DNA of 64,000 nt from Chondrosia reniformis (taxonomy: Eukaryota; Porifera; Demospongiae; Chondrillida; Chondrillidae): NCBI GenBank assembly GCA_947172415.1, contig OX359198.1:6417401-6481400 (forward strand), read 5' to 3'. A program made the translations under genes and the position numbers. The notes under the pieces were generated by a model. The model did no database searches. It was given only the letters and a program-made list of their open reading frames with translations, and was not told the DNA's origin. Shown here one piece after another: positions 2,211 to 61,092 of this stretch. How positions within the stretch are numbered: the first letter of the stretch is position 1; every line of letters starts with the position of its first letter.

Positions 2211-3660
2211 ATTCAGGAACGTCAATATACATCATATAAATGAATAACTGTACGTCTTAACATTTTAGAATCAGAAACTAACATCGCTTTATTGATTCTC
2301 CCTCCGCCTTGGGATGGTCCCTAGAATTTGAGGGTATTTCCCTTGATCCCTTTGAGGAGGAAACACTTGGATCCCAAGAAGAGTTTATTTCCTGTCGAAA
2401 GTGGTCAGTTTTGGAATTCTACAAACATGTACATGCAAGGAGTACTTCTCGTTGCATTCAATAATCTAGCTAATTTGTTATTCGAGCTATCTAAAACAAA
2501 ATCCAAGGGTTTAGACGTTTTGATCCGTGAGCCTGTGTTTGGTGATGAAGGCCCTGGGGTGTAATGTCATTGTTTACTGTACAAGCAGACAGTTGTGGTT
2601 TTAATAAATTAGTATGACTGGACATCTGTACATGTTTTTGGTATAAAAGTCGAGAGCAAAGAGGTTCCTCAGGTTGCTGGAGGTAGCAGTGTATATGTAT
2701 ACAATGACCTGTACAAAGCACAACATGGCTGACACTTCAAATACCTCCAGGAAAAGAATGCTATAAATCCAGAAACCTTGGGGGTGTTGGGTATTAAGAT
2801 TACTTCATAGTTAATTGCTACTAACACTGTAATTAAAGTGAATACTGTATTACTGTACAGGAATATAAACTCCTTTCTAATGAAAAATTTCACTCATTAA
2901 GTTAATTAAACTTGAATTATTGTTAATATTCTGGGCTAGCTATAGATGTATTACCAGGCTACTCTAACATTAATAGTTTTCAATAACATACATAATGGAC
3001 CTGAACAATGACAATCGCAAGACAGAGTCTGCAATGAAAAATGTACCCATAGCAAGTTGTGCTAAAACTTTCTTTCAAGCATATTGACTGATAATATAGC
3101 GTACACTTCTCACAAGAATTAGATTTGGGTAATAAAAAGGGTACTATAGCACCAGTCAACACCAATCACTTGAACTATATTCACTGCATAGAGCACTTAC
3201 AACATATTCTCTGCTCATTCCAAATCTTTGGTCTGTAATTACAGAATGGTCACTCAAGCGCTCTCCTTTCAATAGGACAGTTACCATCCGTCTCAGGTTT
3301 ACTGTAGCGGTTTAAGGCTCCTTTTTCTCAGTCTACCAGGGAAAGCTGCCTTTAGTAACCAATCCTTTCGCTAACGGTAAGTAGATAATTTAGCCCTTCA
3401 GTCACCCGGACCACCAAAGGAATTCTAAGTTGAAGAATGACAGCTCTAGTTAGTATTGCGTTTAATATTGTATTCTAGAAATAGATTAGTCGTAAAATTG
3501 GAGGATCTATCGTACCTGTATAGAAGAAATACCACAGAAAAAGGGATAAAAGCAATTTTAACATTTAGAGAACTCCCTGAATGACGCCATTTTGTCAGCA
3601 TGAGATGAATTCTTTCTCGTTTTTTCGTTTCCATCAACGTTCTTATCTCGTTTATCTAAA
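2211..3660. other. Intergenic region between two divergent genes
   Basis: This stretch separates the WAC-like start (minus strand) from COPS5 (plus strand). I see no convincing coding exon. Short open frames at 2328-2564 and 3446-3815 have no domain or plausible composition. It presumably holds both promoters and any 5' untranslated exons; no specific element could be assigned. Confidence 0.5.
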
Positions 3661-6600
3661 ATGGAGTCGTCTTCAAAAGCCCAAGCGCGATTTGAAACTG
3701 TTAACAAAATCCAAACAGTTGCTAATGTCGATGAAATATTCAAATATAATCCCAAGGATACGGCAAAGATTCTAGCCGAAAAACCATGGGCTAAGGAGTG
3801 AGTAAAGCACCACAAATTGTCTCATGAACAGGGCACTGATGTTCTCAGTATATGATGTATGTATTTTATGTTACAAATCAATTCTTTTAACTTTTATAGC
3901 CCTCATTATTTCAAAGAGATCAAGATATCCGCTCTGTCGCTCCTTAAGATGGTGATGCATGCGAGATCTGGAGGGAGGCTGGAGATTATGGGCATGCTGT
4001 TGGGCAAAATTGATGGCAACACATTAATAGTGATTGACTCCTTTGCACTTCCTGTTGAAGGAACTGAAACTAGGGTCAACGCTCAAGCAGCTGCCTATGA
4101 GTATATGACACAATATATTGAATCAACAAAAAAGGTACTTAAGGGACTAGTCTCGTGTAGCCAGACCGCTATATCGTCTCCATATTGGAGAGACTACTAA
4201 GGGTGTGAAACTAATATTGCATTGAGAGGTTTATCAGCTTTCTTGTTTATGCTGGATTGTTGAAAGATTATTACAGTACTTTTTGGGTTGGTTGTCCAGA
4301 ACAGACATTGCAATTGGGAATTGTAAAAGGTTATCGACGCATGCATGGTGACGTCGTTCTAATGAAAGTTTATTCAAATGTTATAGTCGCGAGTTACTGA
4401 TTGCAACATCCAGTCTGGACAACCAACCCAAAAAGTACTGTAATATTGTAGGAGGGCTATCTGGCATTAATAGGATGACTAGCTAATCAATTATTTGGTA
4501 CCGTTTAAAATAGTCATCAATATTGTAACATTTACAGTACATATATTTTACTATGATCTGGTTCTAGTTGCAAGAGGATCATTTTTGAGCTGCAAATCTT
4601 GTTCCACTTCTATTTCTGGTGCTTTAGGTTGGACGGCTTGAAAATGCCATTGGTTGGTATCACAGTCACCCTGGTTATGGGTGCTGGCTATCTGGTATCG
4701 ATGTGAGTACACAAATGCTGAATCAGCAATTTCAAGATCCTTTTGTGGCCATAGTAGTAGACCCAATACAGACCATGTCCTCCGGAAAGGTTAACCTTGG
4801 GGCCTTCAGAACATACCCAGAGGTGCGTAAGTCAGTTTTTTAAATCATGGGTCAAAGAGAACGATTGTACAATGGAGCTTTCAGTATCTTGTATTCTGTT
4901 ACAGTACAGGCGAGGACAGGAGAGGACTTGAGTGTGATGCACAAGGCACTAAGTATACATCAGATTCTATTGCAATTATCTTAGTACCCTGCAACTCTCC
5001 AGTCCTCTCCTGTCACTCTCCAGTCCCTACCTGTCACTCTCCAGTCCCTGCCTGTCACTCTCCTGTCCTCTCCTGTCACTCTCCAGTCCCTACCTGTCAC
5101 TCTCCAGTCCCTACCTGTCACTCTCCAGTCCCTGCCTGTCACTCTCCTGTCCTCTCCTGTCACTCTCCAGTCCCTGCCTGTCACTCTCCAGTCCCTGCCT
5201 GTCACTCTCCAGTCCTCTCCTGTCACTCTCCAGTCCCTGCCTGTCACTCTCCAGTCCTCTCCTGTCACTCTCCAGTCCCTGCCTGTCACTCTCCAGTCCT
5301 CTCCAGTCCTCTCCTGTCACTCTCCAGTCCCTACCTGTCACTCTCCAGTCCTCTCCTGTCACTCTCCTGTCCTCTACTGTCACTCTCCAGTCCCTGCCTG
5401 TCACTCTCCCGTCCTCACCTGTCACTCTCCAGTCCTCTCCCGTCACTCTCCAGTCCCTGTCTGTCACTCTCCAGTCCTCTCCCGTCACTCTCACGTCCTC
5501 ACCTGTCACTCTCCTGTCCACCTGATATATGCAGTATCTGTGTATGTTAGGGTTACAGACAACCAGAGGAAAGCACACAAGAGTATCAGACAATTCCTCT
5601 TGAAAAGATTGAAGATTTTGGTATTCACTGCAAGCGTTACTACTCCTTAGATGTCAGCTACTTCAAATCCTCCTTTGACTCACAGTTACTAGACCTCCTG
5701 TGGAACAAGTACTGGGTCGGGACGCTCTCCTCTTCACCTCTCCTTTCAGTGAGTTGGACCAGTCACATGTGATCACACAGTTAGTTTTAGAGAAGGGGGA
5801 AGACTTATTTGAGACTCTCTTTATAAGTATGTGTGTGCGAGGCGCTTTACTGTGAATTCTGCTGTACTGAATTTCTGTCACTAATCCCCTGCTAAGGCTA
5901 TGATATGACCACTTCCAGAAGCTGAATGCGAATGGTTAGCACATATTATTATCTCTTCATCACTAAAGTGACACGCCTGTCACTTCATGGAAATATCTCC
6001 CAGTGATTATTTCTATCATTGTTCATTCAGCCTACACAATATATAGCCATTAGCCTATTAAGGTGGCCTTGTAGCCTAGTGGCATGACTATATCTCTGCC
6101 CTCTTACCTAGAATGCAGATTATACTACTCAACAGATACTGGATTTGGGTCAGAAACTTGATAGGGTTTGCAGTGGACAGAGCGTAGGTTTAGTGTAGTA
6201 CTATTTATGAATCATTGATATACGTATTGATTTCCTTTTCCTATTAAACTACATACAGCTAAGATTGTTTAGAACTATTATTTAGTATACAGCGTAAATC
6301 GAACTGTACATATATATAATTGGTCCTACTGGTATCTGGTTTAGCCTGTACATACGTATGTATTTCATGCATTCGATTCCATACAGTATGTTTCAAATGT
6401 TGTGTGTTACCATGTAGTCTGTGGGTGCCTATGTAATGCACATTGTCCCTGACTGTATGCAGAGCTCTATCGGAGGCATGGTGCTGAGGCCAACTGGACA
6501 GGGGAGAGATAAGGGGAAGCTGTCAAAAGTAGCTAAAGACAGGTGTGACCTGCATATGCATGCAACTACTGGTCCATGCAGCTAAGCTATACATACATGT

Positions 6601-41421: not shown

Positions 41422-43396
41422 TTAGCAAGCTTTCTCGATGCCATCCAGAACACCAGAATATTGAGTGCAGGAGTAGATTACACCACCAGCTGGTCCTATT
41501 ATAATATCCCTTTGAGCATCAAAGTGGCCTGCTAGGAGGTAGTTGCTGCCTGGACTCAGCCTAATGCTGTTACATCCTAGCACTGGAGTGACAAAGAGGT
41601 TGAGCACTTCCTCTGCAAAGATGACACCCTTATACGCCTTCCTGACCATCACATTGAATCCTAGAGATCCTCCCTTCTCCATAATAGGCTGTCTTACTGA
41701 CACTAAAGCAACTACAATTATAACAAAACACTAATGGACACAGATTTTAGTATTGACTGAAGTAAAGTATAGTATACAGTATACTACAAATAACTACATA
41801 TTACTCATGAGTAATCAAAGACCCCATTTTCCTATAGACTATGACTTTCACCAGTATAAGACCTATAGAGAACTAAACATAGTTAGAACTTTGGATATGG
41901 ATACAGTCTTCTCTTTACTCTTCTGCTCAACTGGACCAGACAGCCATGGTCCCCATGCATGAAATGGATATAATACAGTTGAAATGAGTAATCTCTCTAT
42001 CATCCAGAAGTTTGTTAAGATGCATGCATGCATATATGTAAAGACACTAAATATGCCAACTCTTACCAATACTACGTCGACAGATCATATCTGCAGAAAT
42101 GTCAGCATCAAAGCAAGTGGCATTATCATTTTTGGAAGGTGGAGCTATAATAGAAGAAGAACACATCCTTATCATAGTTAAATATAAGATTTTGGATATA
42201 TATGACAGGAAAATTAGTGAAATTTTACTTTTTTGACAAGCTGACTCACGTGCAGTGGAGCGAGCATCATTTACATAAACAATGACCCGAGACAATTCTT
42301 TAGACACTCTAACAAGCTGTGATTTCTTATTGAGTTCAGGAAACCGGACATTGATTAACCTCAATCTGAAGAATGCTACTTTTTTAAGTGACTCCTTGTA
42401 AGGTAACACTATAACAGGCAAAATACTCATAGTAGCACCTTCTTTGAAAAACACCTCAAAGATGCCTCCTTGAAAATGAATTCCAGCTTCATGAAAAAAG
42501 GAAGACAGTGCAGTCATATATTGTATGCACGACTTGTATACGTATATACAGAGTATAGAGATACAGAATATTATATGACTAACATATAAGAGATCCACTG
42601 GATACTATAACTTGTACATACATATCTTCAGGAGCTGGTGCTGACAACATTAAAGTGACCCAGTGAACCCTTCTACCCTTTGAGAAGTTATAGCTGGATT
42701 GTGCAAACTGCACATAAACAACTGAAAAAAGATAAAGTAAATCAGAGAAGTAGCTATTGATCTATACTTCCAGACATATACTCATTCTAGAAATTATAAA
42801 ATATATATACGTATATACGTACGTATATATATTTAATATACAGTGCTAGTAGCAACTACTGCATAAGGGAAAAGCTGTATTGATCAGAGATACATACTTT
42901 ATTTATATGATATATGTACATATAATGACCACTAACATCCATCATCATTTTTGACGTGAACTTTAGCCTCAGAGATGCCTGGAAACTGGACTTTTGGATC
43001 AGTTGACTCGAGGGACAGAGTGACATTTCTGTCTGGTCCAACCTCTTCATTGTCACTTATTCCGAGAAAGATGCAAGCAGACTCTTCACCGGCCGAAAAG
43101 GTCACATTGCATTGTGTTCCCCCAACACATGGCTGAGGATCATTGCAGGGACAAGCAATAGTACCTACATATAGCATCAACATTATATTATGTATATACA
43201 TACGTATGTACATAAAATGAGGATTGGGCTTTGACTTTGTAAATGTAGCTGAAACATGTTTTGACAGTTCAAAAAGTCTACATAAGTAGTCGAATGTAAC
43301 TGATCATTGTTGCTTTTTGAGATGATAATTGACAATACGTTGAATAGAGTGGACATGTTTTATTGGTATCTTATAATTATTTAGAGAATTACCATC

Positions 43397-43465
<69 letters not shown>

Positions 43466-46400
43466 ATTATTTATATTAGATTACCTTAGTATATTGTAAC
43501 TTGCACTGTATATATAGTTATAATACTCATGTACAAATTTCATACTCTCGTGTCTCATGTCGTATTGACCACTTGTATTAGTATATTGTTATTGACACCT
43601 ACCATTATGAGTCTCTACTTTGTCACCTACATAATAACAGAAAAGAAAAATCAATGTAATTGATTTTAGGCATACAATATTTAATAGTTGCATGCATTAC
43701 ATGTTTCTCAAAATATACCTGCAACTCAGCAGGTATACATACTATGTATATATAAAACATCCACTATATATACAGTATAATTTATACACTTTCGTATTAT
43801 TTACTTACTGTATATACGTATATGTGTGTACTATGCATATAAAAATTCACTGATATTTATACCCTTTTATTGTACATACTTTCTGACAATGGTTCACTCA
43901 AAGCTAACTGAAGGAAAAAATCTCTCTCCAGATTCCCACTGGCTTTCAGAACCACATATATACCACCGGAAGCTTCAGTTGTTGTGTAAGAATCAAATTC
44001 AAAAGTTACTCCCGCTATATGAAGGTATAGGATAAACTGACACATAATTAAAGGGTTTGACCTACAGTACACAAATTGCAAACTGACCAGGGCAATCTTC
44101 CTTTTTGATACATATTCCTTCATGAAGAGTGTAACCTTTATCAGAGTCACAGAAGCATCCATCAACACATGGACCAAAGGTTGGATATGGTTGCAAGCAT
44201 GTTCCCTCTACTACAGGTCCACAGATTGAATATTTCTGGCCAACTTCACATTGAGGTACTGCAGTTATATTAAGAGACACTAAATAATGATTTTACTAAA
44301 CCTAGCCTAGTAATCATGCATGAATTTCATGCGGTAATTACACATACAGCATTCTTTTGGGAATTTCTCCTCTGGTGTTTCAAAGCCTAGCTGGTGACAT
44401 CGTCCTAAATATTCAAAAACAGAATCACAAGCTATCTCCACATTAATACTCCCATCAACTTCTTCAGCAGCACAGTAATCAAAGACACAAGTATTGATGA
44501 ACTCCAACGGACTGAGAGGTTTCATGCAACCCGAATCTCTTCCAATTTTAGTCAGGACTGCACAGAATTCCTCTCCCCTCTTCTTTCTTGACCCCTCGCA
44601 AGGAGCTGGTGTAGCTTGCTCCACATTACAATCATCAGCCTCTGACAGCTCATAATTGGCCCATGATATTCCAAAGGCAGCCACATTTGTCGTGACAGTC
44701 TGGGTTCCATTAGGTCCTAATATGGCAAAGTCATCATTGGGATTGTCATTGAAGTTTCCACAGAGACCGCACATTCTTCCAATAAAGACATCAGGTACTG
44801 TGACACCAACTCTAGTGTAACCATCATAAGTAACAGTAACAGGAATAGTAGTCAACTCATCATCATCAGGAAACATGTGTGGTATCTGAATGACTATGGT
44901 GTGACCTGCACCATGGGCAGTCACTTGGAATATATGGACAGGCAGTTCTGTTGGGACAGATATAAGCTGTGATCGTCTAAGTTCTATGCTATAGTTTTCT
45001 CCATAGGCTTCAACTTCAATGACTATTCCATGGATGCATGTGACAGTACTACCGCATCTATACTGGTCACTGTATATGGCAAAGGTTTCTCCAAAGCAGT
45101 CCTTGGCAAAGGTGTAGAAACACACTCCCTGGAAGTGGTGCACTGCTCCATCAAAGGTGTAATAATGTGGGTCCCCACTGGCAGTACATGTCCTTGTTTC
45201 AGTCTGTTTTGGTATATCAACAAATCCTAGGTAAAGTAAGGTGAATATAGTGGAACCATTCTGGAAATTTTGAAAGCTGAAACTTGTAAGTCAAGGAAAG
45301 ACATTACCTATATGCCTAGTCTCACCTCCGCATTCTTCAGGTTTTTTACATGTCTCTGAATCCTTATCCAGGAAGAAGCCATCTGGACAGAAGCATCCAG
45401 CAACACAGGGCTCCCTCAAACCAACCTGATCCTTACATGTTGGAGGCACCCTTGGTCCACACACTTTGTACACCCGTCCCACAGGACAGTCAGGCACTGA
45501 AGTGGCATAATGTACATGAGATGACCTATAACATGCTAATTAGCAATCCTACTAAGTGCTACAAATTGATAAATGTAGGTGTGAAAGGTCTGGTGTGTAG
45601 TACTAAATGTAATTAGTAGGGCTTAGGTTGCACAGCCTAACTTAATTTGTAGACCAGGGAAGACTGTCATTGTTGCTAGATATAAAAACTTCTGTATACT
45701 GTTGAAATGTTATCAAAGGAAAGTTTATGTTTGAAGTGTAAATTGTATGTCCTCTGCAAACCATATTATATATATATACAAACACAATAAGGCTACAATG
45801 TATGTGCAGTTTAATGTGTAATTAATGTACTAGTGTATGCCTGCAAGCTAATGCTAAATACTTACAGCATTTTGAAGGAGGGGGTCCAATGGTAACATTA
45901 TAAGCTTGACATCTCTCAGCATAATTGAGAATGGTCCCACAGCCACAAGTGTCGGTTTCACAGACACAAGAATCAAGAACACAATCTGTATGGACTCTAT
46001 CAGGACTAATGATATCATGACAAGAGGCATATGAACCATCCTCATCCAAAAGGACAGCACAGAAGGATTCAGCTCTTGTTTTGTCTTCTTCCCCACATGG
46101 TTCCGGTTCCATTGGCGTCTGAGGTCTGCAGTCATCATCATGTATGCCAAAGTCACTAGCATTCACACGATAGTCCAACTCAAATTCAAGTAAGCCTGCT
46201 GTTTCACCATTTTGAAGCATAAATTCATTGTTAGTGTCTCCGTCATAATTGCCAAGCAACCCACACATGCTATTTTTGTAGGTGCTTGGAACCGTTACTG
46301 ATAGATAATACCGACTATAACTAATGCTGACATCATAATCATACAAGATAACTGTGTGAGATCCAGAACTTGAAATGACCCGCATTGTGGATTCTGGAGG

Positions 46401-48386
46401 TGGGTCATCATCACCAATAAATGTTGCTTTGCTACCATCAAGAAGTAGATTAACGTTCAGCTCAGGAACACTTACAACAGCCTTCTCAATACATGTTGGT
46501 GCTCTCCCACCAGAACAGGCATTGGATGTAAAACTGTAAACTGTGAATGTCTCATTCGCGCAGTCTTTAGTAAAGATGTGAAAGCAGTGGTCAAACAGGT
46601 CATAATAGAGACCATCGTATGTGCGGTAATGGGGATCTCCAACTCCGGATCCAGTAGCTGTTTGGGTATCAGGTTTGGGAGGTTCAGGAGCCTCCATGCA
46701 GTCATCTTCATTTATACACTTGTTTGTTTGGACATGAAAAACAGTTCCTTCAGGACAAAAACAGTTAAACTCCTCTACAGCTCCAGTATGATCAGGATTC
46801 TTCTCCAAGCAAGTGGGCTCTGGCGAGAAAGAGTGGCGAGCTATCTTCCCTGATGGGCCATCGCAATCTATACAATATATAGTACATATACTCATGTATA
46901 TATTACTCAATAGAATATGAATACCGGTAAATTAAAATGTTTCCAGAATATTGAGGATAAAAACAACCAATTAGTTTTTCTACATTTGGACACCATTAAT
47001 ATAGTTCTTATTACTGTATATACTTACATTCAATTCAGGACAATGTACGTATTGAAATAGACGGTTTGCTATATATGTACATGTGTAAACAGTATACATG
47101 CAGTAGGGAAATGTAATGACTATATGCGCTTCCACTTTATAGACTCATAGTCTGATGGTATTGTATGCATAATAGACTGGTATATATTCATATAAAGATG
47201 GAATTGAATTTCTTACTCAATGCATCATCATCCTTAATGGTTACTGTAATTAATGTTGTACCAGTAGTACCAGTGGTAGGATTTAAAGCGGCAAGAACAC
47301 AAAACATAGTTTTGTCACCATCTTCATCGCTATTATCTGTTATTGGAACTGTCACAGTAGTAGTACTTTCGGTAATAAATGAGACTACTTGAGTTACTGC
47401 CTTGAATGCTACAAAAAATTAAAGAATATATATATACATACAGGCATAATTTGAATACTGTAGGAGATTACAAAAAGTGGCTGTCTAGATTCTAGTAAAG
47501 AATGCTGCATGAGTACTGAAGCAAATAACACATATTATATGAAAAGGGATTTACTTGCACAAAACCTATAGTACAAAGGCCATAATACAATTATGACGAT
47601 CACTGGATTCATTAAACCAAACTAGCCAGGCAAAATCTTAGTTAGGGGACTGAGGTCCCATTAAAATGGCAACCAGTGATCACCTCCCAGTCATCCAAAA
47701 TCAGTGAACCTCAGATAGCTATTTGTTTACCTCTGATTGGCCTCCTTAATAACATATGTATATATACTATAGTGACATGCAGTACAAATTCTTACGTAGA
47801 AAGAGAGGTATACAAGTGACTTGTGCTCTGGCAGGAGCTGGCAAAGTAAACACTCCACTGAGAGTAACAGTGATTTCAAAACTTCCAGAATTCTCCGCAA
47901 CTTCTTTACTGGCAGACCCAAGTGATACAAACTCTAGAGACCATTAATTAAATATTAATGCAATATGTGTATGCATATATATAACAAATGAAAAGAAGCT
48001 ATATTATGGCATCAATAATTAAGTGTTAATTCCACAGGTAATCATATTATAATAGTTTGCTGAAATGAATTTCAAAGTATAAGAAATATTATCATTATTT
48101 ATCCAAACCTGTTGGTACTATAATCTGGCTTGTTGTAGCTGCAGCCATCATAAGAACCACTAGAAACACAGTGAGAAGGAGTGAAAATAGGAAGTGTGTG
48201 AGGAAAGGGAGAAGTAAAAGGGAGTAATAAATTCCCACTGTTGCTTCTTACAAAATCATTTATATTATAGCAAAATCTCCTTTAAATCCTGTCACTATAG
48301 ACATATTTTAACACAAATGTCACTAATAACACTACAGATCAAACATGTAATACATTCATACCTAGGATAAAGAGTGTACTCTTCAT
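41422..48386 (-). CDS. Secreted Calx-beta / VWD-C8-TIL (x2) / NTR-like protein, copy A
   Basis: Minus-strand exons in order: signal peptide split over 48386-48370 and 48165-48115 (MKSTLFILVVLMMAAATTSQ); Calx-beta-like strands (47937-47798 and 47412-47205, FEITVTLSGVF, TLITVTIKDDD); VWD with GSGVGDPHYRTYDGLYYDLF and SMCGLLGNYDGDTNNEF, then C8 and TIL cysteines (46868-45867, 45500-45327); second VWD with GDPHYYTFDGAVHHFQGVC and MCGLCGNFNDNPNDDF, then C8 and TIL (about 45220-44090); further Calx-beta-like exons (44020-42935, 42725-42250). The last exon is NTR/C345C-like (LNLFVTPVLGCNSIRLSPGS). An in-frame stop at 42932 follows a GTTAGT donor, so splicing onward is expected. CGLCGN motifs suggest disulfide-linked multimers. 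The role is unknown; sponge aggregation factors also combine Calx-beta with VWD. Confidence 0.82.
41857..41965 (+). repeat. Dispersed R1 repeat copy (in duplicated unit A)
   Basis: CCTATAGAGAACTAAACATA, AACTTTGGATATGGATACAG and GGACCAGACAGCCATGG. The matching copy in unit B is at 50846-50945, so this insertion predates the duplication. Confidence 0.7.
43400..43462. repeat. (CT)n(TA)n microsatellite
   Basis: CT repeats followed by TA repeats in an intron of copy A. The corresponding site in copy B is shorter and adjoins a large palindrome insertion. Confidence 0.9.
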
Positions 48387-49094
48387 TCTCACAATTCCTG
48401 CAAGAATTGCAAAAAGTGTCAGGTAGCATAACCACTTATCTTAAATACCTTATATGTGCAGACCACATAGCACGTGCACAAGAATAAATAAGGTGAGTCA
48501 TGCCTTGACCTTCCATTTGACCAGGAGGGAGGCAGTTGGGGCTTGCATATGTTTTCTTCTGACTTGCACACTTGTAGGGTATAATTGCATGTGCAGGTGC
48601 ACACGTTGCAAGTTGAACAAATGAGTGTTTATATATAGAAGATTTGCAAGTGTTATATAGTACAGCTAATTAAGTTGTGCAAATGGTCATAAGATACCTC
48701 AAAGGTCACATATATATACTGAAATTTATTTGTATTAGATGACCACTACATTACTATTCTTTTGAGTGTCTTGTGTATATATATATCATAAATATAATAA
48801 CGCCCATACTTGAGAAATCAAAGGTCGCATATATATATATACTGAAATGTATTTGTATTAGATGACCACTACATTACTATTCTTTTTGAGTGTCTTGTGT
48901 ACATATCATAACTAAAAGGTATAGACTAAATGTAACAAAAGTACATAAGTGAACAAAATATAGTTAGTTCACTGTTAATTATTTGGCGACAGGCACAACG
49001 ACCTATACTTCTGACAACAGTCTAGTCTAAGCGCATGCAGGACTTGCTAAAATAATCAATCCTATTTTCTAGCTCAACGCCTCCGGTTGATCAC
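48387..49094. promoter_or_regulatory. Divergent promoter region, copy A
   Basis: Lies between the secreted-protein start (minus) and the protease start (plus). It includes a local tandem duplication of about 110 bp (two copies of GTATTAGATGACCACTACAT near 48732 and 48856) that is single in copy B. Confidence 0.6.
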
Positions 49095-50078
49095 ATGGCC
49101 CATGGAAAAGGTAAGCAGTGTTAATTAATATTATTTGTCAATTATCGCTACTCCTCAATGCAAGTTTCCTAATCGTATCTTGACAGGAATATTTTTAGGA
49201 GAAGCCTCTGTGTTCGATCAATGTATTATATGTCACCTACTGTATTCGGATCGATCGTTATTATAATTTTCATTATCATTACCAATTGCAAATCATTATT
49301 ATACTGATACTCAGGGAGCCCAGTGACAATATAAGAGATGGATTGTTAATTATATATACCGTTTAGTTTACCATTTATTACGTCGCGGTAGTGAATCTTC
49401 CTGCTTAATATATTTTTTTAATTCAGTCGTCTGCTTGTCTCCTTAATAATAGAAATTCTAAAGTTGGTATAGGAACAGGATTTTTGGCAGAGTTTAAGGT
49501 TCCATTCCTCTCAACAAAGTATATCGTTCTAGCGACCAATAACCATGTCCTTCAAGACGTTGATCTTGCGTTGCAATCAGAAATTGTATTCGATACAGGC
49601 CAACAAGAGCACACCTTTACTGGTAAAGAGCTCTTCAATACTGAAATATGGAAGAGTAGCGATGCCAGAGTATGTGGTAGTTTTAGGAATTATTTACATA
49701 CATTTTGGAACACATTTTAGGGAACTGTATTATTGACTAAATTGTGTTTTTGTATGTTACATTTATTTATTGCAGGAATTAGACTATACATTGGTTGGAA
49801 TCAACACAGAGGTACTAAAAGTGATGCCATGTGGTGTTCCTATACCCATATCCCTGCAGCAACACCAGCAGTGTCATACTAACTTGCAACCGAAAGATAA
49901 CGTGTACATTGTACATTACGGCAGTGAGAAGGGGGAGCATGTCAAATCACTTAATGGATATATTGCCCATAAAGTAATAGGTACGTATTATTTGTGATAT
50001 TTTCTTAAAACACATATATCTTCAACCTACATACATATATGTATATATCTATGTATATATGTATGTATATATAATGGA
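49095..50078 (+). pseudogene. Truncated trypsin-like protease gene, copy A
   Basis: A damaged copy of the protease-Death gene at 58682. Exon 1 (MAHGK) and the exons with the catalytic His (LATNNHVLQDVDLAL, from 49434) and Asp (DYTLVGI, 49775-49980) remain. Exon 2 has lost about 90 bp, including its donor. The exon carrying GGSSGAP is gone: the sequence jumps at 49990 to what corresponds to 60127 in copy B. The Death-domain exon was never included in the duplicated segment. The remaining exons are well kept, so inactivation looks recent. This is a host gene copy, not a virus remnant. Confidence 0.85.
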
Positions 50079-50396: not shown

Positions 50397-53300
50397 TTAG
50401 CAAGCTTTCTCGATGCCATCCAGAACACCAGAATATTGAGTGCAGGAGTAGATTACACCACCAGCTGGTCCTATTATAATATCCCTTTGAGCATCAAAGT
50501 GGCCTGCTAAGAGATAGTTGCTACCTGGACTCAGCCTAATGCTGTTACATCCTAGCACTGGAGTGACAAAGAGGTTGAGCACTTCCTCTGCAAAGATGAC
50601 ACCCTTATACGCCTTCCTGACCATCACATTGAATCCTAGAGATCCTCCCTTCTCCATAATAGGTCGTCTTACTGACACTAAAGCAACTACAATTATAACG
50701 AAACACTAATGGACACAGACTTTAGTCTTGACTGAATTAAAGTAGTAAATATATAGTATACAGTATACTACAAATAACTACATATTACTCATGAGTAATC
50801 AAAGACCCCATTTTCCTATAGACTATGACTTTCACCAGTATAAGACCTATAGAGAACTAAACATAGTTAGAACTTTGGATACGGATACAGTTTTTTCTTA
50901 ACTCTTCTGCGCAACTGGACCAGACAGCCATGGTCCCCATGCATGAAATGGATATAATACAGTTGAAATGGGTAATCTCTCTATCATCCAGAATTTTTTT
51001 AAGATGCATGCATGCATATGTAAAGACACTAAATATGCCAACTCTTACCAATACTACGTCGACAGATCATATCCGCAGAAACGTCAGCATCAAAGCAAGT
51101 GGCATTATCATTTTTGGAAGGTGGAGCTATAATAGAAGAAGAACACATCCTTATCATAGATAAATACAAGATTTTGGATATATATGACAGGAAAATTAGT
51201 GAAATTTTACTTTTTTGACAAGCTGACTCACGTGCAGTGGAGCGAGCATCATTTACATAAACAATGACCCGAGACAATTCTTTAGACACTCTAACAAGCC
51301 GTGATTTCTTATTGAGTTCAGGAAACCGGACATTGATTAACCTCAATCTGAAAAATGCCACTTTTTTAAGTGACTCCCTGTAAGGTAACACTATAACAGG
51401 CAAAATACTCATAGTAGCACCTTCTTTGAAAAACACCTCAAAGATGCCTCCTTGAAAATGAATTCCAGCTTCATGAAAAAAAGGAAGACAGTGCAGTCAT
51501 ATATTGTATGCACGACTTGTATACGTATATACAGAGTATAGAGATACAGAATATTATATGACTAACATATAAGAGATCCACCGGATACTATAGTTTGTAC
51601 ATACATATCTTCAGGAGCTGGTGCTGACAACATTAAAGTGACCCAGTGAACCCTTCTACCCTTTGAGAAGTCATAGCTGGATTGTGCAAACTGCACATAA
51701 ACAACTGAAAAAAGATAAAGTAAATCAGAGAAGTAGCTATTGATCTATACTTCCAGACATATACTCATTCTAGATATTATATACGTACGTATATATATTT
51801 AATATACAGTGCTAGTAGCAACTACTGCATAAAGGAAAAGCTGTATTGATCAGAGATACATACTTTATTTATATGATATATGTACATATAATGACCACTA
51901 ACATCCATCATCATTTTTGACGTGAACTTTAGCCTCAGAGATGCCTGGAAACTGGACTTTTGGATCAGTTGACTCGAGGGACAGAGTGACATTTCTGTCT
52001 GGTCCAACCTCTTCATTGTCACTTATTCCGAGAAAGATGCAAGCAGACTCTTCACCGGCTAAAAAGGTCACATTGCATTGTGTTCCCCCAACACATGGCT
52101 GAGGATCATTGCAGGGACAAGCAATAGTACCTACATATAGCATCAACATTGTATTATGTATATACATACGTATGTACATAAAATGAGGATTGGGCTTTGA
52201 CTTTGTAAATGTAGCTGAAACATGTTTTGACAGTTCAAAAAGTCTACATAAGTAGTCGAATGTAACTGATCATTGTTGCTTTTTGAGATGATAATTGACA
52301 ATACGTTGAATAGAGTGGACATGTTTTATTGGCATCTTATAATTATTTAGAGAATTACCATCCTCTCTCTCTCTCTCTATCTATATATATATATATATAT
52401 ATTGTGTAGGAATAGTGAGTGTTATATATTATGCATGTTTAAATACAATCAAGTACTACACAGTGCAAGTTACAAATTTATACACGGATGCAAGTGACTC
52501 CCAAGATTATCACACTGAGGTATATAATATAATACGGATGCAAATGACTCCCAAAAATAATCACAATCAGGTATATTAAACGCTACAAGACTTTAGCCAC
52601 ACTGAAATTCTCAACTGCTGCATACAGAGTAGTAGTCTCTACAGATCATATAAGGTTAAACGCATGGCCTTCCAATTACCTTTTCACACTTAGTATAGAC
52701 TGAAGATGATGCATCTGCATGCCATTATCAGCAAAAATTCCAGTCTCATGCAGGGGGTCTCAGCCAATAATCACCGCAGATTTGACTTGCCTTGAGTGTG
52801 AGCTAGGAGTACCGTTGGTTGCTTGCATGCATTCACATAAACAACAGGGTGAGAGACAATTTGGTAACTTGCACACAAGGGACATAAAGGCTGGGGCCTT
52901 TAATTTATTTTATGAACAATGTCCCTTGTGTGCAAGTTACCAAATTGTCTCTCACCCTGTTGTTTATGTCAATGCATGCAAGCAACCAACGGTACTCCTA
53001 GCTCACACTCAAGGCAAGTCAAATCTGCGGTGATTATTGGCTGAGACCCCCTGCATGAGACTGGAATTTTTGCTGATAATGGCATGCAGATGCATCATCT
53101 TCAGTCTATACTAAGTGTGAAAAGGTAATTGGAAGGCCATGCGTTTAACCTTATATGATCTGTAGAGACTACTACTCTGTATGCAGCAGTTGAGAATTTC
53201 AGTGTGGCTATATATATATAGTTATAATACTCATGTACAAATTTCATACTCTCGTGTCTCATGTCGTATTGACCACTTGTATTAGTATATTGTTATTGAC

Positions 53301-56300
53301 ACCTACCATTATGAGTCTCTACTTTGTCACCTACATAATAACAGAAAAGAAAAATCAATGTAATTGATTTTAGGCATACAATATTTAATAGTTGCATGCA
53401 TTACATGTTTCTCAAAATATACCTGCAACTCAGCAGGTATACATACTATGTATATATAAAACATCCACTATATATACAGTATAATTTATACACTTTCGTA
53501 TTATTTACTTAATGTACATACGTATATATATGTGTGTACTATGCATATAAAATTTCACTTATATTTATACCCCTTTATTGTACATACTTTCTGACAATGG
53601 TTCACTCAAAGCTAACTGAAGGAAAAAATCTCTCTCCAGATTCCCACTGGCTTTCAGAACCACATATATACCACCGGAAGCTTCAGTTGTTGTGTAAGAA
53701 TCAAATTCAAAAGTTACTCCCGCTATATGAAGATATAGGATACACTGACACATAATTAAAGGGTTTGACCTACAGTACACAAGTTGCAAACTGACCAGGG
53801 CAATCTTCCTTTTTGATACATATTCCTTCATGAAGAGTGTAACCTTTATCAGAGTCACAGAAGCATCCATCAACACATGGGCCGAAGGTTGGATATGGTT
53901 GCAAGCATGTTCCCTCTACTACAGGTCCACAGATTGAATATTTCTGGCCAACTTCACATTGAGGTACTGCAGTTATATTAAGAGACACTAAATAATGATT
54001 TCACTAAGCCTAGCCTAGTAATCACACATGAATTTCATGCGGTAATTACACATACAGCATTCTTTTGGGAATTTCTCCTCTGGTGTTTCAAAGCCTAGCT
54101 GGTGACATCGTCCTAAATATTCAAAAACAGAATCACAAGCTATCTCCACATTAATACTCCCATCAACTTCTTCAGCAGCACAGTAATCAAAGACACAAGT
54201 ATTGATGAACTCCAACGGACTGAGAGGTTTCATGCAACCCGAATCTCTTCCAATTTTAGTCAGGACTGCACAGAATTCCTCTCCCCTCTTCTTTCTTGAC
54301 CCCTCGCAAGGAGCTGGTGTAGCTTGCTCCACATTACAATCATCAGCCTCTGACAGCTCATAATTGGCCCATGATATTCCAAAGGCAGCCACATTTGTCG
54401 TGACAGTCTGGGTTCCATTAGGTCCTAATATGGCAAAGTCATCATTGGGATTGTCATTAAAGTTTCCACAAAGACCGCACATTCTTCCAATAAAGACATC
54501 AGGAACTGTGACACCAACTCTAGTGTAACCATCATAAGTAACAGTAACAGGAATAGTAGTCAACTCATCATCATCAGGAAACATGTGTGGTATCTGAATG
54601 ACTATGGTGTGACCTGCACCATGGGTAGTCACTTGGAATATATGGACAGGCAGTTCAGTTGGGACAGACATAAGCTGTGATCGTCTAAGTTCTATGCTAT
54701 AGTTTTCTCCATAGGCTTCAACTTCAATGACTATTCCATGGATGCATGTGACACCTGTATTGCATATATACTGGTCACTGTATATGGCAAAGGTTTCTCC
54801 AAAGCAGTCCTTGGCAAAGGTGTAGAAACACACTCCCTGGAAGTGGTGCACTGCTCCATCAAAGGTGTAATAATGTGGGTCCCCACTGGCAGTACATGTC
54901 CTTGTTTCAGTCTGTTTTGGTATATCAACAACTCCTAGGTAAGGTAAGGTGAATATAGTGGAACCATTCTGGAAATTTTGAAAGCTGAAACTTGTAAGTC
55001 AAGAATATTACCTATATGCCTAGTCTCACCTCCGCATTCTTCAGGTTTTTTACATGTCTCTGAATCCTTATCCAGGAAGAAGCCATCTGGACAGAAGCAT
55101 CCAGCAACACAGGGCTCCCTCTGACCAACCTGATCCTTACATGTTGGAGGCACCCTTGGTCCACACACTTTGTATACTCGTCCCACAGGACAGTCAGGCA
55201 CTAAAGTGGCATAATGTACATGAGATGACCTACAATAACATGCTAATAAGCAATCCAACTAAGTGCTACAAATTGGTAAATGTAGGTGTGAAAGGTCTGG
55301 TGTGTAGCACTAATTAGGTGAAAAGTAGGGCTTAGGTTGCACAGCCTAACTTAATTTGTAGACCAGGGAAGACTGTCATTGTTGCTAGATATAAAAACTT
55401 CCTGTCTACTGTTAAAATGTTAGTAAGGTAGCTAATGTACTAGTGTATGCCTGCAAGCTAATGCTAAATACTTACAGCATTTTGAAGGAGGTGGTCCAAT
55501 GGTAACATTATAAGCTTGACATCTCTCAGCATAATTGAGAATGGTCCCACAGCCACAAGTGTCGGTTTCACAGACACAAGAATCAAGAACACAATCTGTA
55601 TGAACTCTATCAGGACTAATGATATCATGACAAGAGGCATATGAACCATCCTCATCCAAAAGGACAGCACAGAAGGATTCAGCTCTTGTTTTGTCTTCTT
55701 CCCCACATGGTTCCGGTTCCATTGGCGTCTGAGGTCTGCAGTCATCATCAAGTATGCCAAAGTCACTAGCATTCACACGATAGTCCAACTCAAATTCAAG
55801 TAAGCCTGCTGTTTCACCATTTTGAAGCATAAATTCATTGTTAGTGTCTCCATCATAATTGCCAAGCAACCCACACATGCTATTTTTGTAGGTGCTTGGA
55901 ACCGTTACTGATAGATAATACCGACTATAACTAATGCTGACATCATAATCATATAAGAAAACTGTGTGAGATCCAGAACTTGAAATGACCTGCATTGTGG
56001 ATTCTGGAGGTGGGTCATCATCACCAATAAATGTTGCTTTGCTACCATCAAGGAGCAGGTTAACGTTCAGCCCAGGAACACTTACAACAGCCTTCTCAAT
56101 ACATGTTGGTGCTCTCCCACCAGAACAGGCATTGGATGTAAAACTGTAAACTGTGAATGTCTCATTAGCGCAGTCTTTAGTAAAGATGTGAAAGCAGTGG
56201 TCAAACAGGTCATAATAGAGTCCATCGTATGTGCGGTAATGGGGATCTCCAACTCCAGATCCAGTAGCTGTTTGGGTATCAGGTTTGGGAGGTTCAGGAG

Positions 56301-58050
56301 CCTCCATGCAGTCCTCTTCGTTTATACACTTGTTTGTTTGCACATGAAAAACAGTTCCTTCAGGACAAAAACAGTTAAACTCCTCTACAGCTCCAGTATG
56401 ATCAGGATTCTTCTCCAAGCAAGTGGGCTCTGGCGAGAAAGAGTGGCGAGCTATCTTCCCTGATGGGCCATCGCAATCTATACAATATATAGTACGTATA
56501 CTCATGTATATATTACTCAATAGAATATGAATACCGGTAAATTAAAATGTTTCCAGAATATTGAGGATAAAACATAACCAGTTATGTTTTTTCTACATTT
56601 GGACACTATTAGTATAGTTCTTATTACTGTATATACTTACCATCAATTCAGGACAATGTACATATTGAAATAGATGGTTCGCTATATGTAAACAGTTTAA
56701 GTTTGCTATATATATATATGTACATATGTAAACAGTATACATGCAGTAGGGAAATTTAATGATAGTATGGGCTTCCACTTTATAGACTCATAGTCTTATG
56801 GTATTGTATGCATAATAGACTGGTATATATGTACGCATAGAGTCATATGAAGATGGAATTGAATTTCTTACTCAATGCATCATCATCCTTAATGGTTACT
56901 GTAATTAATGTTGTACCAGTAGTACCAGTGGTAGGATTTAAAGCGGCAAGCACACAAAACATAGTTTTGTCACCATCTTCATCGCTATTATCTGTTATTG
57001 GAACTGTCACAGTAGTAGTACTTTCGGTAATAAATGAGACTACTTGAGTTACTGCCTTGAATGCTACAAAAAATTAAAGAATATATATATACATACAGGC
57101 ATAATTTGAATACTGTAGGAGATTACAAAAAGTGGCTGTCTAGATTCTAGTAAAGAATGCTGCATGAGTACTGAAGCAAATAACACATATTATATGAAAA
57201 GGGATTTACTTGCACAAAACCTATAGTACAAAGGCCATAATACAATTATGACGATCACTGGATTCATTAAACCAAACTAGCCAGGCAAAATCTTAGTTAG
57301 GGGACTGAGGTCCCATTAAAATGGCAACCAGTGATCACCTCCCAGTCATCCAAAATCAATGAACCTCAGATAGCTATTTGTTTACCTCTGATTGGCCTCC
57401 TTAATAACATATGTATATATACTATAGTGACATGCAGTCTATGTAATACAAATTCTTACGTGGAAAGAGAGGTATACAAGTGACTTGTGCTCTGGCAGGA
57501 GCTGGCAAAGTAAACACTCCACTGAGAGTAACAGTGATTTCAAAACTTCCAGAATTCTCCGCAACTTCTTTACTGGCAGACCCAAGTGATACAAACTCTA
57601 GAGACCATTAATTAAATATTAATGCAATATGTGTATGCATATATATAACAAATGAAAAGAAGCTATATTATGGCGTCAATAATTAAGTGTTAATTCCACA
57701 GGTAATCATATTATAATAGTTTGCTGAAATGAATTTCAAAGTATAAGAAATATTGTCATTATTTATCCAAACCTGTTGGTACTATAATCTGGCTTGTTGT
57801 AGCTGCAGCCATCATAAGAACCACTAGAAACACAGTGAGAAGGAGTGAAAATAGGAAGTGTGTGAGGAGAGGGAGAAGTAAAAGGGAGTAATAAATTCCC
57901 ACTGTTGCTTCTTACAAAATCATTTATATTATAGCAAAATCTCCTTTAAATCGTGTCACTATAGACATATTTTAACACAAATGTCACTAATAACACTACA
58001 GATCAAACATGTAATACATTCATACCTAGGATAAAGAGTGTACTCTTCAT
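50397..58050 (-). CDS. Secreted Calx-beta / VWD-C8-TIL (x2) / NTR-like protein, copy B
   Basis: Complete second copy with the same exon order: signal peptide from 58050, Calx-beta-like exons near 57590 and 57050, first VWD-C8-TIL from 56478 to about 55030, second VWD-C8-TIL from about 54930 to 53800, Calx-beta-like exons, and the NTR-like last exon ending at 50397. Large exons keep their frames, with only a few residue changes from copy A (for example PGLNVN for PELNVN, HTVFLYDYD for HTVILYDYD). The exception is a loop near 54752-54769, where YICNTG replaces YRCGST. Both copies therefore look functional. As in copy A, an in-frame stop at 51898 lies just behind a GTTAGT donor. Confidence 0.82.
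50846..50945 (+). repeat. Dispersed R1 repeat copy (in duplicated unit B)
   Basis: Orthologous to the copy at 41857-41965, with a few substitutions. Confidence 0.7.
52597..53210. mobile_element. Large palindromic element, about 285-bp inverted arms, only in copy B
   Basis: Arms start GCCACACTGAAATTCTCAAC and GTAGAGACTACTACTCTGTA in inverted orientation, and are nearly identical over about 285 bp, with a spacer of about 40 bp. TA flanks both tips, suggesting a TA target duplication. It lies in an intron next to a CT/TA microsatellite. The corresponding intron of copy A has no such element. Confidence 0.85.
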
Positions 58051-58681
58051 TCTCACAATTCCTGCAAGAATTGCAAAAAGTGTCAGGTAGCATAACCACT
58101 TATCTTAAATACCTTATATATGCAGACCACATAGCACGTGCACAAGAATAAATAATGCCTTGTCATGCCTTGACCTTACATTTGACCAGGAGGGAGGCAG
58201 TTGGGGCTTGCATATGTTTTCTTCTGACTTGCACATTTGGAGGGTATAATTGCATTTGTGGGTGCACACGTTGCAAGTTGAATAATGGGTGTTTATAGAA
58301 GATTTGCAAGTGTTAATATAGCTAATTAAGTTATGCAAATGGCCATACTTGAGAAATCAAAGGTCGCATATATATATATACTGAAATGTATTTGTATTAG
58401 ATGACCACTACATTACTATTCTTTTTGAGTGTCTTGTGTACATATCATAACTAAAAGGTATAGACTAAATGTAACAAAAGTACATAAGTGAACAAAATAT
58501 AGTTATATAGTTCACTGTTAATTATTTGGTGACAGGCACAACGACCTATACTTCTGACAACAGTCTAGTCTAAGCGCAGGATTTACTAATTTACATAAGG
58601 AAATAGATCGACCAGCTAAAATAATCAATCCGATTATATCGATTTTTAGCTCAACGCCTCCGGTTGATCACAAACAACAAA
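58051..58681. promoter_or_regulatory. Divergent promoter region, copy B
   Basis: 631 bp separate the start of the secreted-protein gene (minus) from the start of the protease-Death gene (plus). Shared blocks with copy A include CACAACGACCTATACTTCTG and the CTCAACGCCTCCGGTTGATC just before the protease start. Confidence 0.6.
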
Positions 58682-60626
58682 ATGGCCGATGGAAAAGGTA
58701 AGCAGTGTTAATTAATATGATTTGTCAATTATCGATACTCTCAATGCAAGTTTCCTAATCGTATCTTGACAGGAATATTTTTGGAAGAAGCCTCTGTGAC
58801 GGTAAACAAGGGGGCAGACGCCATTACATGCGAAAACTGGGAGACAGTTAAGAAAGCCGTTTGTCGTATTAGGTGAATTCGATCAATGTATTATATGTCA
58901 TCTTCTCAGATCTGTATTATAAATACCGTTTAGTTTAAGTCCATTTATTACGTCGCGGTAGTGAATCTTCCTGCTTAATATATTTTTTAATTCAGTCGTT
59001 TGCTTGTCTCCTTAATAATAGAAATTCTAAAGGTGGTATAGGAACAGGATTTTTGGCAGAGTTTAAGGTTCCATTCCCATCAACAAAATGTATCGTTCTA
59101 GCGACTAATAACCATGTCCTTCAAGACGTTGATCTTGCGTTGCAATCAGAAATTGTTTTCGATACAGGCCAGCAAGGGCACACCTTTACTGGTAAAGAGC
59201 TCTTCAATACTGAAATATGGAAGAGTAGCGATGCCAGAGTATGTGGTAGTTTTAGGAAATTATTTACATACATTTTGGAACACATTTTAGGGAACTGTAT
59301 TATTGACTAAATTGTGTTTTTGTATGTTACATTTATTTATTGCAGGAATTAGACTATACATTGGTTGGAATCAACACAGAGGTACTAAAAGTGATGCCAT
59401 GTGGTGTTCCTATACCCATATCCCTGCAGCAACACCAGCAGTGTCATACTAACTTGCAACCGAAAGATAACGTGTACATTGTACATTACGGCAGTGAGAA
59501 GGGGGAGCATGTCAAATCACTTAATGGATATATTGTCCATAAAGTAATAGGTACGTACGTATATTGAGTACTCCCATCAATATAAGTATATATGAGGATG
59601 TGTGGTGTGAGGGTGGGTGGTGTGAGGGTGTGTGGTGTGAGGGTACCGTAGTGGGTGATGTTGAGGTGGGTGGTGTGAGGGTGTGGGTGGCATATAAGTA
59701 TAAACCTTTTGGTTAAAGCTATTTAAATCTGATCATTTTTGAAGTTCAATTAAATTTTCACTCTCTGTTTCTCCTCACAAATTCTTCTTATCAGGTCCAT
59801 TACTGACTCATTTGGCCACAACCTTTGGAGGGTCGTCAGGGGCACCCATATTTAAAGCAATCAATGGCCAGCTAGTAGCAGTAGCCATCCATCGAGGATG
59901 CGTGCCTCCTGATCCATCTAAAGCAAAGGTGAACGGAGGGACCCTACTGGAAGATGTTCTTTATCATGTCATTAATAACACTTACAAACCAGGTAATGCA
60001 GTAGGAATTTTTAACTGTACATGTAGCTAATTAATTGTTTCAGCCTTTTGAGTTATATGTTTCCGTAGCTATGACCACACACCTGGATCCTTATATAGTA
60101 TTTACACAAGCTTTTGATCAATTGACTGTGATATTTTCTTAAAACACATACATGTATATCTTCAACCTACGTGCATACATTATATGTATATACGTGTGTG
60201 ATGTGATGGGTATGTAATGTACCCATATATATACTGCATGCTACTATAGGGCTGCCTTCACTGAGTGAAATATTGCAGGAGTGTAGTGAAGAGGTAGATG
60301 GTTCACCAGGACCAATGAATAACTCCCCTTCTGAGGAAGATGAAAAGGCTCCAACAATGGAAGAACTAGGGGAATACATTTTGCAACTGTCATCGAATCT
60401 GCTACAGCTCGCCTCGGCTATGAATTTGTATGACTTTGCCATATCTATAAAGTTTGAACCTGGAACAGCCACTGATAAGTGCTCTCGATTACTGCATAAG
60501 TGGCTCACTTCTACTGCCAGTCCCACTTGGGAGACATTTTATCACATTTTGAGAAAACGAGGCCTTGATATGAATAATATGGCCATGGAGGTTGCTAGGA
60601 AACATTGCCCTCACGTCCTTAATTAA
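58682..60626 (+). CDS. Intracellular trypsin-like serine protease with C-terminal Death domain
   Basis: Six exons: 58682-58697, 58772-58872, 59023-59238, 59346-59550, 59795-59992 and 60250-60626, about 370 residues. There is no signal peptide (MADGKGIFLEEASVTVNKG) and no activation peptide. The protease part has GGIGTGFLAEF, the His in ATNNHVLQD, the Asp in LDYTLVGI and the Ser in FGGSSGAPIF, the order and spacing of an HtrA/Trypsin-2-type fold; GSSGAP replaces the classic GDSGGP. After an acidic linker (SPSEEDEKAPTMEELGEY), the last exon encodes a helical Death-fold domain (ILQLSSNLLQLASAMNLYDF; LLHKWLTSTASPTWETFYHI; MEVARKHCPHVLN). Death domains recruit partners by like-like binding, so this could be a protease switched on by assembly, as caspases are. 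Function is inferred only. Confidence 0.85.
59585..59700. repeat. GTGTGAGGGTG simple repeat in protease intron
   Basis: Degenerate GTGGTGTGAGGGTG repeats between exons 4 and 5 of the protease-Death gene. This segment lies within the part missing from copy A. Confidence 0.75.
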
Positions 60627-61092
60627 CCAAAAGAGCAGGAGAATAAATGGACCAGCTCTCAACATCCGTTTTTACATACACTTAGCTTTGTAATTTCTTA
60701 TTTCTTGTAAGATTTCCTATATGTACGTAGCATCAAATAGTTTTGTATCCATACCAGAGCTACGTACGTATATAGTACTTATCTTAATTATACGATGTCA
60801 AGGACAAGTAATTATATTCTGGCTACCGTCCTCGCCCCCTCGCCCCCGGGCTATATAACTTAACCTTTGTAAATGTATCTTTGCATGTCTTTATTGACCT
60901 TAGTTTTGTCATAATGGGTGACTCCATTGAACACCAGCAATTCTTAGATGTATGATTGCATATACATATGTATGTTATGTTATGTTACACATGTTAATTT
61001 TTCAAAGTATAGCATATACACTGTTTGACTACTTGCATGGCTTAAATGTACTGTAATAATTTTGTAATACCATTTGGTATTCGGTTGGTAAC
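60627..61092. other. Convergent intergenic region
   Basis: Lies between the protease-Death stop (plus) and the FN3/laminin gene stop (minus). It is AT-rich, with a short GC-rich patch near 60830 (CCTCGCCCCCTCGCCCCCGG). No coding exon is seen; presumably both 3' untranslated regions. Confidence 0.5.

Follow-up and report, generated by a model that had tools for sequence, protein, structure and literature searches.

Animal Death-fold domains are known recruiters of caspases, kinases and adaptors, and in initiator caspases, RIPK1 and IRAK a recruitment domain of the Death superfamily shares one chain with an effector enzyme. Predicted bacterial conflict systems include fusions of death-like domains with trypsin-like peptidases (PMC8195603), and LypA, which combines a CARD-type domain with a trypsin-like peptidase, is required for lysis, which an S262A variant fails to restore (PMC13236601). 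For Amphimedon, the corresponding section of PMC8195603 names caspase, PNPase and HD as possible effectors after Death/TRADD-N units, and no trypsin. Here we describe a gene on chromosome 10 of the demosponge Chondrosia reniformis that is predicted to encode a Trypsin_2 serine protease with a C-terminal Death domain; it lies in a stretch of 64,000 nucleotides (C10:6417401-6481400), referred to as the window, whose coordinates are used throughout.

Among animal Trypsin_2 proteases a close described system is FAM111A, which is dimerisation-dependent (PMC10920703). It typically carries two ubiquitin-like domains, which members from Paramuricea and Branchiostoma lack, and its PIP box is found in mammals except marsupials and monotremes; the available portion of the same source names no Death domain for FAM111 (PMC9798293). 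Proteases joined to a death-fold adaptor are already known from bacteria, and FAM111-type proteases from animals. An animal fusion of Trypsin_2 and Death domains was not found in a literature search of limited coverage, which does not establish its absence from print; the available portions of PMC11797021, PMC9334734 and PMC11788884 name trypsin and death domains, never in one protein.

Gene model and protease domain

The predicted gene (58682-60626, forward strand; 6,476,082-6,478,026 on OX359198.1) comprises six exons and five GT-AG introns, with splicing deduced from the DNA, and its 370 open codons would give a protein of 370 residues:

58682..58697, +: exon 1; start codon, MADGK, followed by a GT-AG intron
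58773..58872, +: exon 2; N-terminal extension, aligning with the pre-core segment of bacterial relatives
59022..59238, +: exon 3, protease; His70 codon at 59113-59115
59346..59550, +: exon 4, protease; Asp114 codon at 59352-59354
59795..59992, +: exon 5, protease; Ser194 codon at 59836-59838, Thr189 at 59821-59823, His212 at 59890-59892
60250..60626, +: exon 6; acidic linker and predicted Death domain
60252..60350, +: acidic linker, residues 247-279, with seven Glu (252, 256, 259, 260, 274, 275, 277); the model is of low confidence here
60351..60611, +: predicted Death domain within exon 6, about residues 280-366, from paralogues, profile-profile comparison, model and fold comparison
60642..60647, +: AATAAA polyadenylation signal, beginning 16 nucleotides after the stop

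An earlier reading of the DNA alone (the sequence-only reading) had placed these exons, the catalytic residues and the acidic linker, and had proposed protease and Death domain in one gene; its observation is confirmed by the open model and by the conservation of the triad. A Pfam scan of the protein finds Trypsin_2 (PF13365) at residues 46-209 (1.2e-7; 33 bits against a curated cut-off of 27.6) as the only family, with no Trypsin, caspase domain or EAD family. When the protein is aligned with ten others, three of them sister proteases and seven of bacterial or metagenomic origin, the catalytic His70 (NNHVLQD), Asp114 (ELDYTLVGI) and Ser194 (GGSSGAP) are identical in all 11 sequences, as are Thr189 and His212, and the likeness to relatives reaches into the short N-terminal segment ahead of the protease core. 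No signal peptide is evident in the start MADGKGIFLEE..., judged by eye and without a predictor. A secreted digestive trypsin was ruled out by this start and by the Pfam family, which is Trypsin_2 and not Trypsin, and bacterial contamination by the presence of introns and by the chromosome-scale contig of the C. reniformis genome. This genome measures 117.37 Mb in 14 chromosomes plus mitochondrion (PMC12181767); our searches of it covered 117,379,552 bases in 15 contigs.

Thr189 and His212 lie five residues before and 18 after Ser194, the same spacing as chymotrypsin residues 190 and 213 have by number, and the three residues are taken as chymotrypsin 190, 213 and 195, respectively (S1 numbering after PMC5508998). 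Glutamyl endopeptidases are described as having His213 and Ser/Thr190 as mandatory S1 elements, with the caution that His213 also occurs in Gln-specific enzymes and is not key to charge recognition (PMC5508998). A set of 117 protease relatives, four of which have no readable GxSG and were left unscored, has Thr or Ser at the -5 position in 113 of 113 and the His in 109 of 113. From these residues the S1 site is predicted to be of the glutamyl endopeptidase type, with cleavage after Glu or Gln. Because Thr189 and His212 fall at the alignment positions of the residues that line the Glu/Gln pocket in glutamyl endopeptidases, the enzyme is V8/FAM111-like and not a true trypsin; the trypsin-like enzyme of the sequence-only reading stands as a Trypsin_2 serine protease, but not as one with the specificity of trypsin.

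Profile searches of the PDB with the protease match SplB, V8-type glutamyl endopeptidases, staphylococcal exfoliative toxins and human FAM111A, the last with a sponge-only profile (3e-4); a PDB search with the single protein gave nothing useful. The glutamyl endopeptidases V8 and Esp, together with SplB, are linked to the window protein by the profile match, and the protein has the Thr/Ser190 and His213 elements of glutamyl endopeptidases; those enzymes are secreted, bacterial and not known to carry Death domains. FAM111A/B resemble it as animal Trypsin_2 proteases with a conserved triad that are reached by the sponge-only profile, whereas N-terminal ubiquitin-like domains like those of FAM111A were not found in the window protein, in which only 45 residues precede the Trypsin_2 match.

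Bacterial relatives of the protease

Among matches with an organism name the best are bacterial. The database searched consists of public genomes and metagenomes and holds few named eukaryotes among these matches, so bacterial kinship does not imply horizontal transfer. A first search for relatives found PF19964 in two of nine proteins and PF20308 in four of the nine, and a second found PF19955, PF19957, PF19961 or PF19964 in 12 of 117; PF19955 is EAD1 by Pfam's own name, and the other three of this second group we take to be effector-associated families. The kinship with bacterial adaptor-bearing proteases, to which the sequence-only reading had pointed, is supported by these matches. Relatives of the EAD type share the Trypsin_2 enzyme family, the N-terminal segment and the S1 residues with the window protein, and the bacterial EAD/bDLD systems and the CARD-trypsin protein LypA likewise couple a helical adaptor domain to a peptidase in one protein (PMC8195603, PMC13236601). 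The adaptor is N-terminal in LypA (PMC13236601) and in P0037, where EAD1 occupies residues 6-78 at a score slightly under the Pfam cut-off, whereas the sponge gene has introns and a C-terminal Death domain of animal type.

Three further proteins, P0027, P0030 and P0038, are Asn-rich and in our judgement apparently eukaryotic; they carry the same protease domain with other C-terminal parts. The protease family may therefore extend beyond animals and bacteria.

The C-terminal Death domain

A hidden Markov model check of the C-terminal exon, which had been read as a Death-fold exon, gave a divided answer: a direct Pfam scan of exon 6 returned no family, Death (PF00531) included, whereas profile-profile comparison (hhalign) with Pfam-called Death domains scored 95-96% with an E-value of 3.6e-8 (4.7e-9 under other settings), and its real score of 50.5 exceeds all 60 shuffles, the best of which reached 15.8. 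Shuffle and reversal controls ruled out a chance assignment. The AlphaFold model of this part is confident and has a predicted six-helix Death fold, in agreement with the fold expected by the sequence-only reading, and its neighbours in fold comparison are the Death domains of RIPK1 and FADD. On the combined basis of paralogues, profile comparison with shuffles, the confident model and fold comparison, exon 6 is assigned as encoding a Death domain. Three sets of sequences enter these comparisons: A1, the wider Death family (14 domains, four of them Pfam-called); A2, the close family (10 domains); and A3, eight Death open reading frames (ORFs), all supported by PF00531, among which L002 is itself a weak match of the query. 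Seven loci (L020, L022, L023, L025, L026, L028 and L031) were omitted from A1 and A2 as near-identical or truncated.

The combination of recruitment domain and enzyme is that of initiator caspases, RIPK1 and IRAK, and the fold neighbours of the predicted Death domain include RIPK1 itself. The enzyme differs, being a chymotrypsin-fold serine protease rather than a cysteine protease or kinase, and its predicted preference is for Glu/Gln rather than the Asp of initiator caspases.

An independent metagenomic protein, P0026, has protease, acidic linker and Death domain in a single ORF, in the order of the window protein. Its protease is well modelled, and the fold matches that of the glutamyl endopeptidases V8 and Esp and of their relative SplB. 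No close relatives of P0026 were found in 84,980 bacterial and archaeal species genomes or in viral contigs; a eukaryotic source fits.

Several comparisons gave nothing or spoke against the assignment. Foldseek E-values for the Death model are poor, and in the PDB the A2 profile of the close family matched no Death structure above noise. The Death part of the P0026 model is of low confidence, and a search of the C. reniformis genome with P0026 gave no clear match (best 0.027, at a place with a Pfam Death match), so that P0026 is no close orthologue of the window gene.

Proposed function and alternatives

We consider it probable that the gene encodes an intracellular Trypsin_2 protease which is docked through its C-terminal Death domain, activated by proximity and cuts after Glu (possibly Gln), leading to an immune or cell-death output. 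The Death domain would dock the enzyme onto an upstream Death-domain scaffold or adaptor; candidate scaffolds in the same genome are a CARD ORF (3.2e-7) and a ZU5-like ORF (0.0091, under the Pfam cut-off), each of which lies upstream of a closely related Death exon. Crowding would then activate the protease by induced proximity, as in initiator caspases and the dimerisation-dependent FAM111A, and the active enzyme would cut after Glu, possibly Gln, with its own Glu-rich linker perhaps among the targets. A cut in the linker may free the enzyme for an immune or cell-death output. The sequence-only reading proposed that the protein acts as a non-caspase initiator in immunity or cell death, which is a plausible candidate function.

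A broader proposal, which we advance tentatively, is that death-fold signalling in sponges and in the organism of P0026 has a branch that is independent of caspases. Its enzymes would be Glu-directed serine proteases of bacterial-defence type that dock through Death or CARD domains, become active on crowding and free themselves at the linker, and they would be animal counterparts of bacterial CARD-protease immunity modules. The sponge gene is a good candidate for a switch that resembles a caspase in design but uses an unrelated enzyme. A serine protease on the same polypeptide as a Death domain would extend the list of enzymes recruited by Death-fold domains. It would also tie animal Death signalling to the bacterial defence based on CARD or death-like domains and proteases, where lysis needs the peptidase activity (LypA, PMC13236601), and it raises the question of whether, in animals, pores such as gasdermins lie downstream of serine proteases activated by crowding.

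The alternative that survives best, which we nevertheless regard as unlikely, gives the same protein another job: a nuclear or housekeeping protease akin to FAM111, with the Death domain as a mere binding module and no immune or death role. The THOC1 Death domain is the best PDB match of profile A1 (3.6e-6), the sponge-only protease profile reaches FAM111A, and the linker of P0026 holds a stretch, PAKRPKV, that in our judgement resembles a nuclear import signal. This stretch is not present in the window protein, however; a CARD ORF precedes one of the related Death exons, a sister protease on C12 adjoins a CARD, and the best-matching enzymes include the bacterial proteins with effector-associated domains.

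Less probable still is a division into two transcripts, in which the protease would end with exon 5 and the Death exon would form part of an adjacent or alternative transcript. Read-through beyond exon 5 does reach a stop about 12 codons on. Against this, the join of exons 5 and 6 is a phase-1 GT-AG junction with normal signals, and the polyadenylation signal directly follows exon 6, with neither AATAAA nor ATTAAA between exons 5 and 6; a single ATTAAA lies at 59749, in intron 4. Moreover, P0026 holds protease and Death domain in one frame, and death-fold-type ORFs lie downstream at five of seven sister loci. Protease and C-terminal Death domain in one gene, as first read, are supported. A decaying or untranscribed copy is similarly improbable, for although the fragment described below lacks the Ser and Death exons and some sister loci are broken, the window gene has an unbroken frame, a full triad and proper splice sites, and a Death exon 95% identical to its own is found in another contig set (P0018). 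A protease exon 76% identical to that of the window (P0025) could correspond to the gene or to its fragment copy.

Sister loci and local duplication

The window gene is not unique but belongs to a small family in the genome, some members of which have Death or CARD-type ORFs as neighbours. Besides the local fragment, seven other family loci with a protease were found (three on C6, two on C12 and two on C11), in a list that may be incomplete. The sister proteases in the sets A5-A7 were pieced together by eye from open frames, so that exon edges are approximate; A7 holds five of the eight family proteases, namely that of the window and four others. A death-fold-type ORF follows the serine exon at the five loci mentioned above, several of them broken, and the two C11 proteases are followed by ORFs of other kinds:

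C6: downstream Death ORF, 4.6e-6, scored on an identical ORF
C6: downstream CARD-like ORF, Pfam CARD_2 0.097, under the cut-off
C6: downstream Death, decayed, frame-broken
C12: downstream CARD, 1.6e-5 with its halves joined; in-frame stop between the halves
C12: downstream CARD remnant, decayed
C11:5735001-5745000, - (L046): Trypsin_2 protease, then macro-domain ORFs (5.5e-11 and 9.9e-9)
C11:5751001-5761000, - (L047): Trypsin_2 protease, then an RRM-like ORF (PARP14-type, 0.0018, under the cut-off)

The assignment of these ORFs to genes is ambiguous because additional Death and CARD-type ORFs also sit upstream at the C6 and C12 loci. For the C6 Death ORF the phase-compatible join ranks second and the top-ranked join hits a stop, while for the C12 CARD the phase-compatible join ranks first; the C6 CARD-like ORF has a good join from a linker exon, but every join from the serine exon was filtered out. 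The C11 loci suggest a protease joined to PARP14-like antiviral parts.

When the acceptor behind the longest pyrimidine run is taken at each of 12 Death loci, its phase agrees at 10 of them with that of the acceptor used in the window gene; the window locus itself gives a tie that includes this phase, and L037 differs. This agreement fits exon shuffling, the test being a rough one. At L043, ORFs with identical Death translations (2815-3141 and 4830-5156) lie on either side of one C6 protease gene, a sign of very recent local duplication. A PF00531 scan of the genome gave at least 142 Death matches at E 1e-3 or better, many of them on C2.

A Pfam Trypsin_2 scan of the genome found eight places, among them one C11 family member and one place on C13. 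Of the six others, read as single open frames, one looks like an HtrA-type protein, three look like secreted trypsin-like proteins and two, which form a pair, look like short single-exon proteins; in none of them is a Death domain evident by eye, without Pfam. The scan misses split genes, since the window gene is not among its eight places.

Within the window the gene has one local copy:

47346..49987, +: partial duplicate of 57001-59557, in pieces 86.7 to 97.4% identical

Exons 1, 3 and 4 are represented in it, together with the opening bases of exon 2; it is a fragment because it yielded no match to the remainder of exon 2, to the Ser exon (exon 5) or to the Death exon (exon 6). An extracellular-type gene on the reverse strand is likewise present as a tandem duplicate (42050-46931 and 51032-56541), with VWD (3.3e-24) and C8 (2.8e-10) matches in the copy at 55435-56541. 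The tandem duplication, with an offset of about 9 to 10 kb, included the head of the protease gene.
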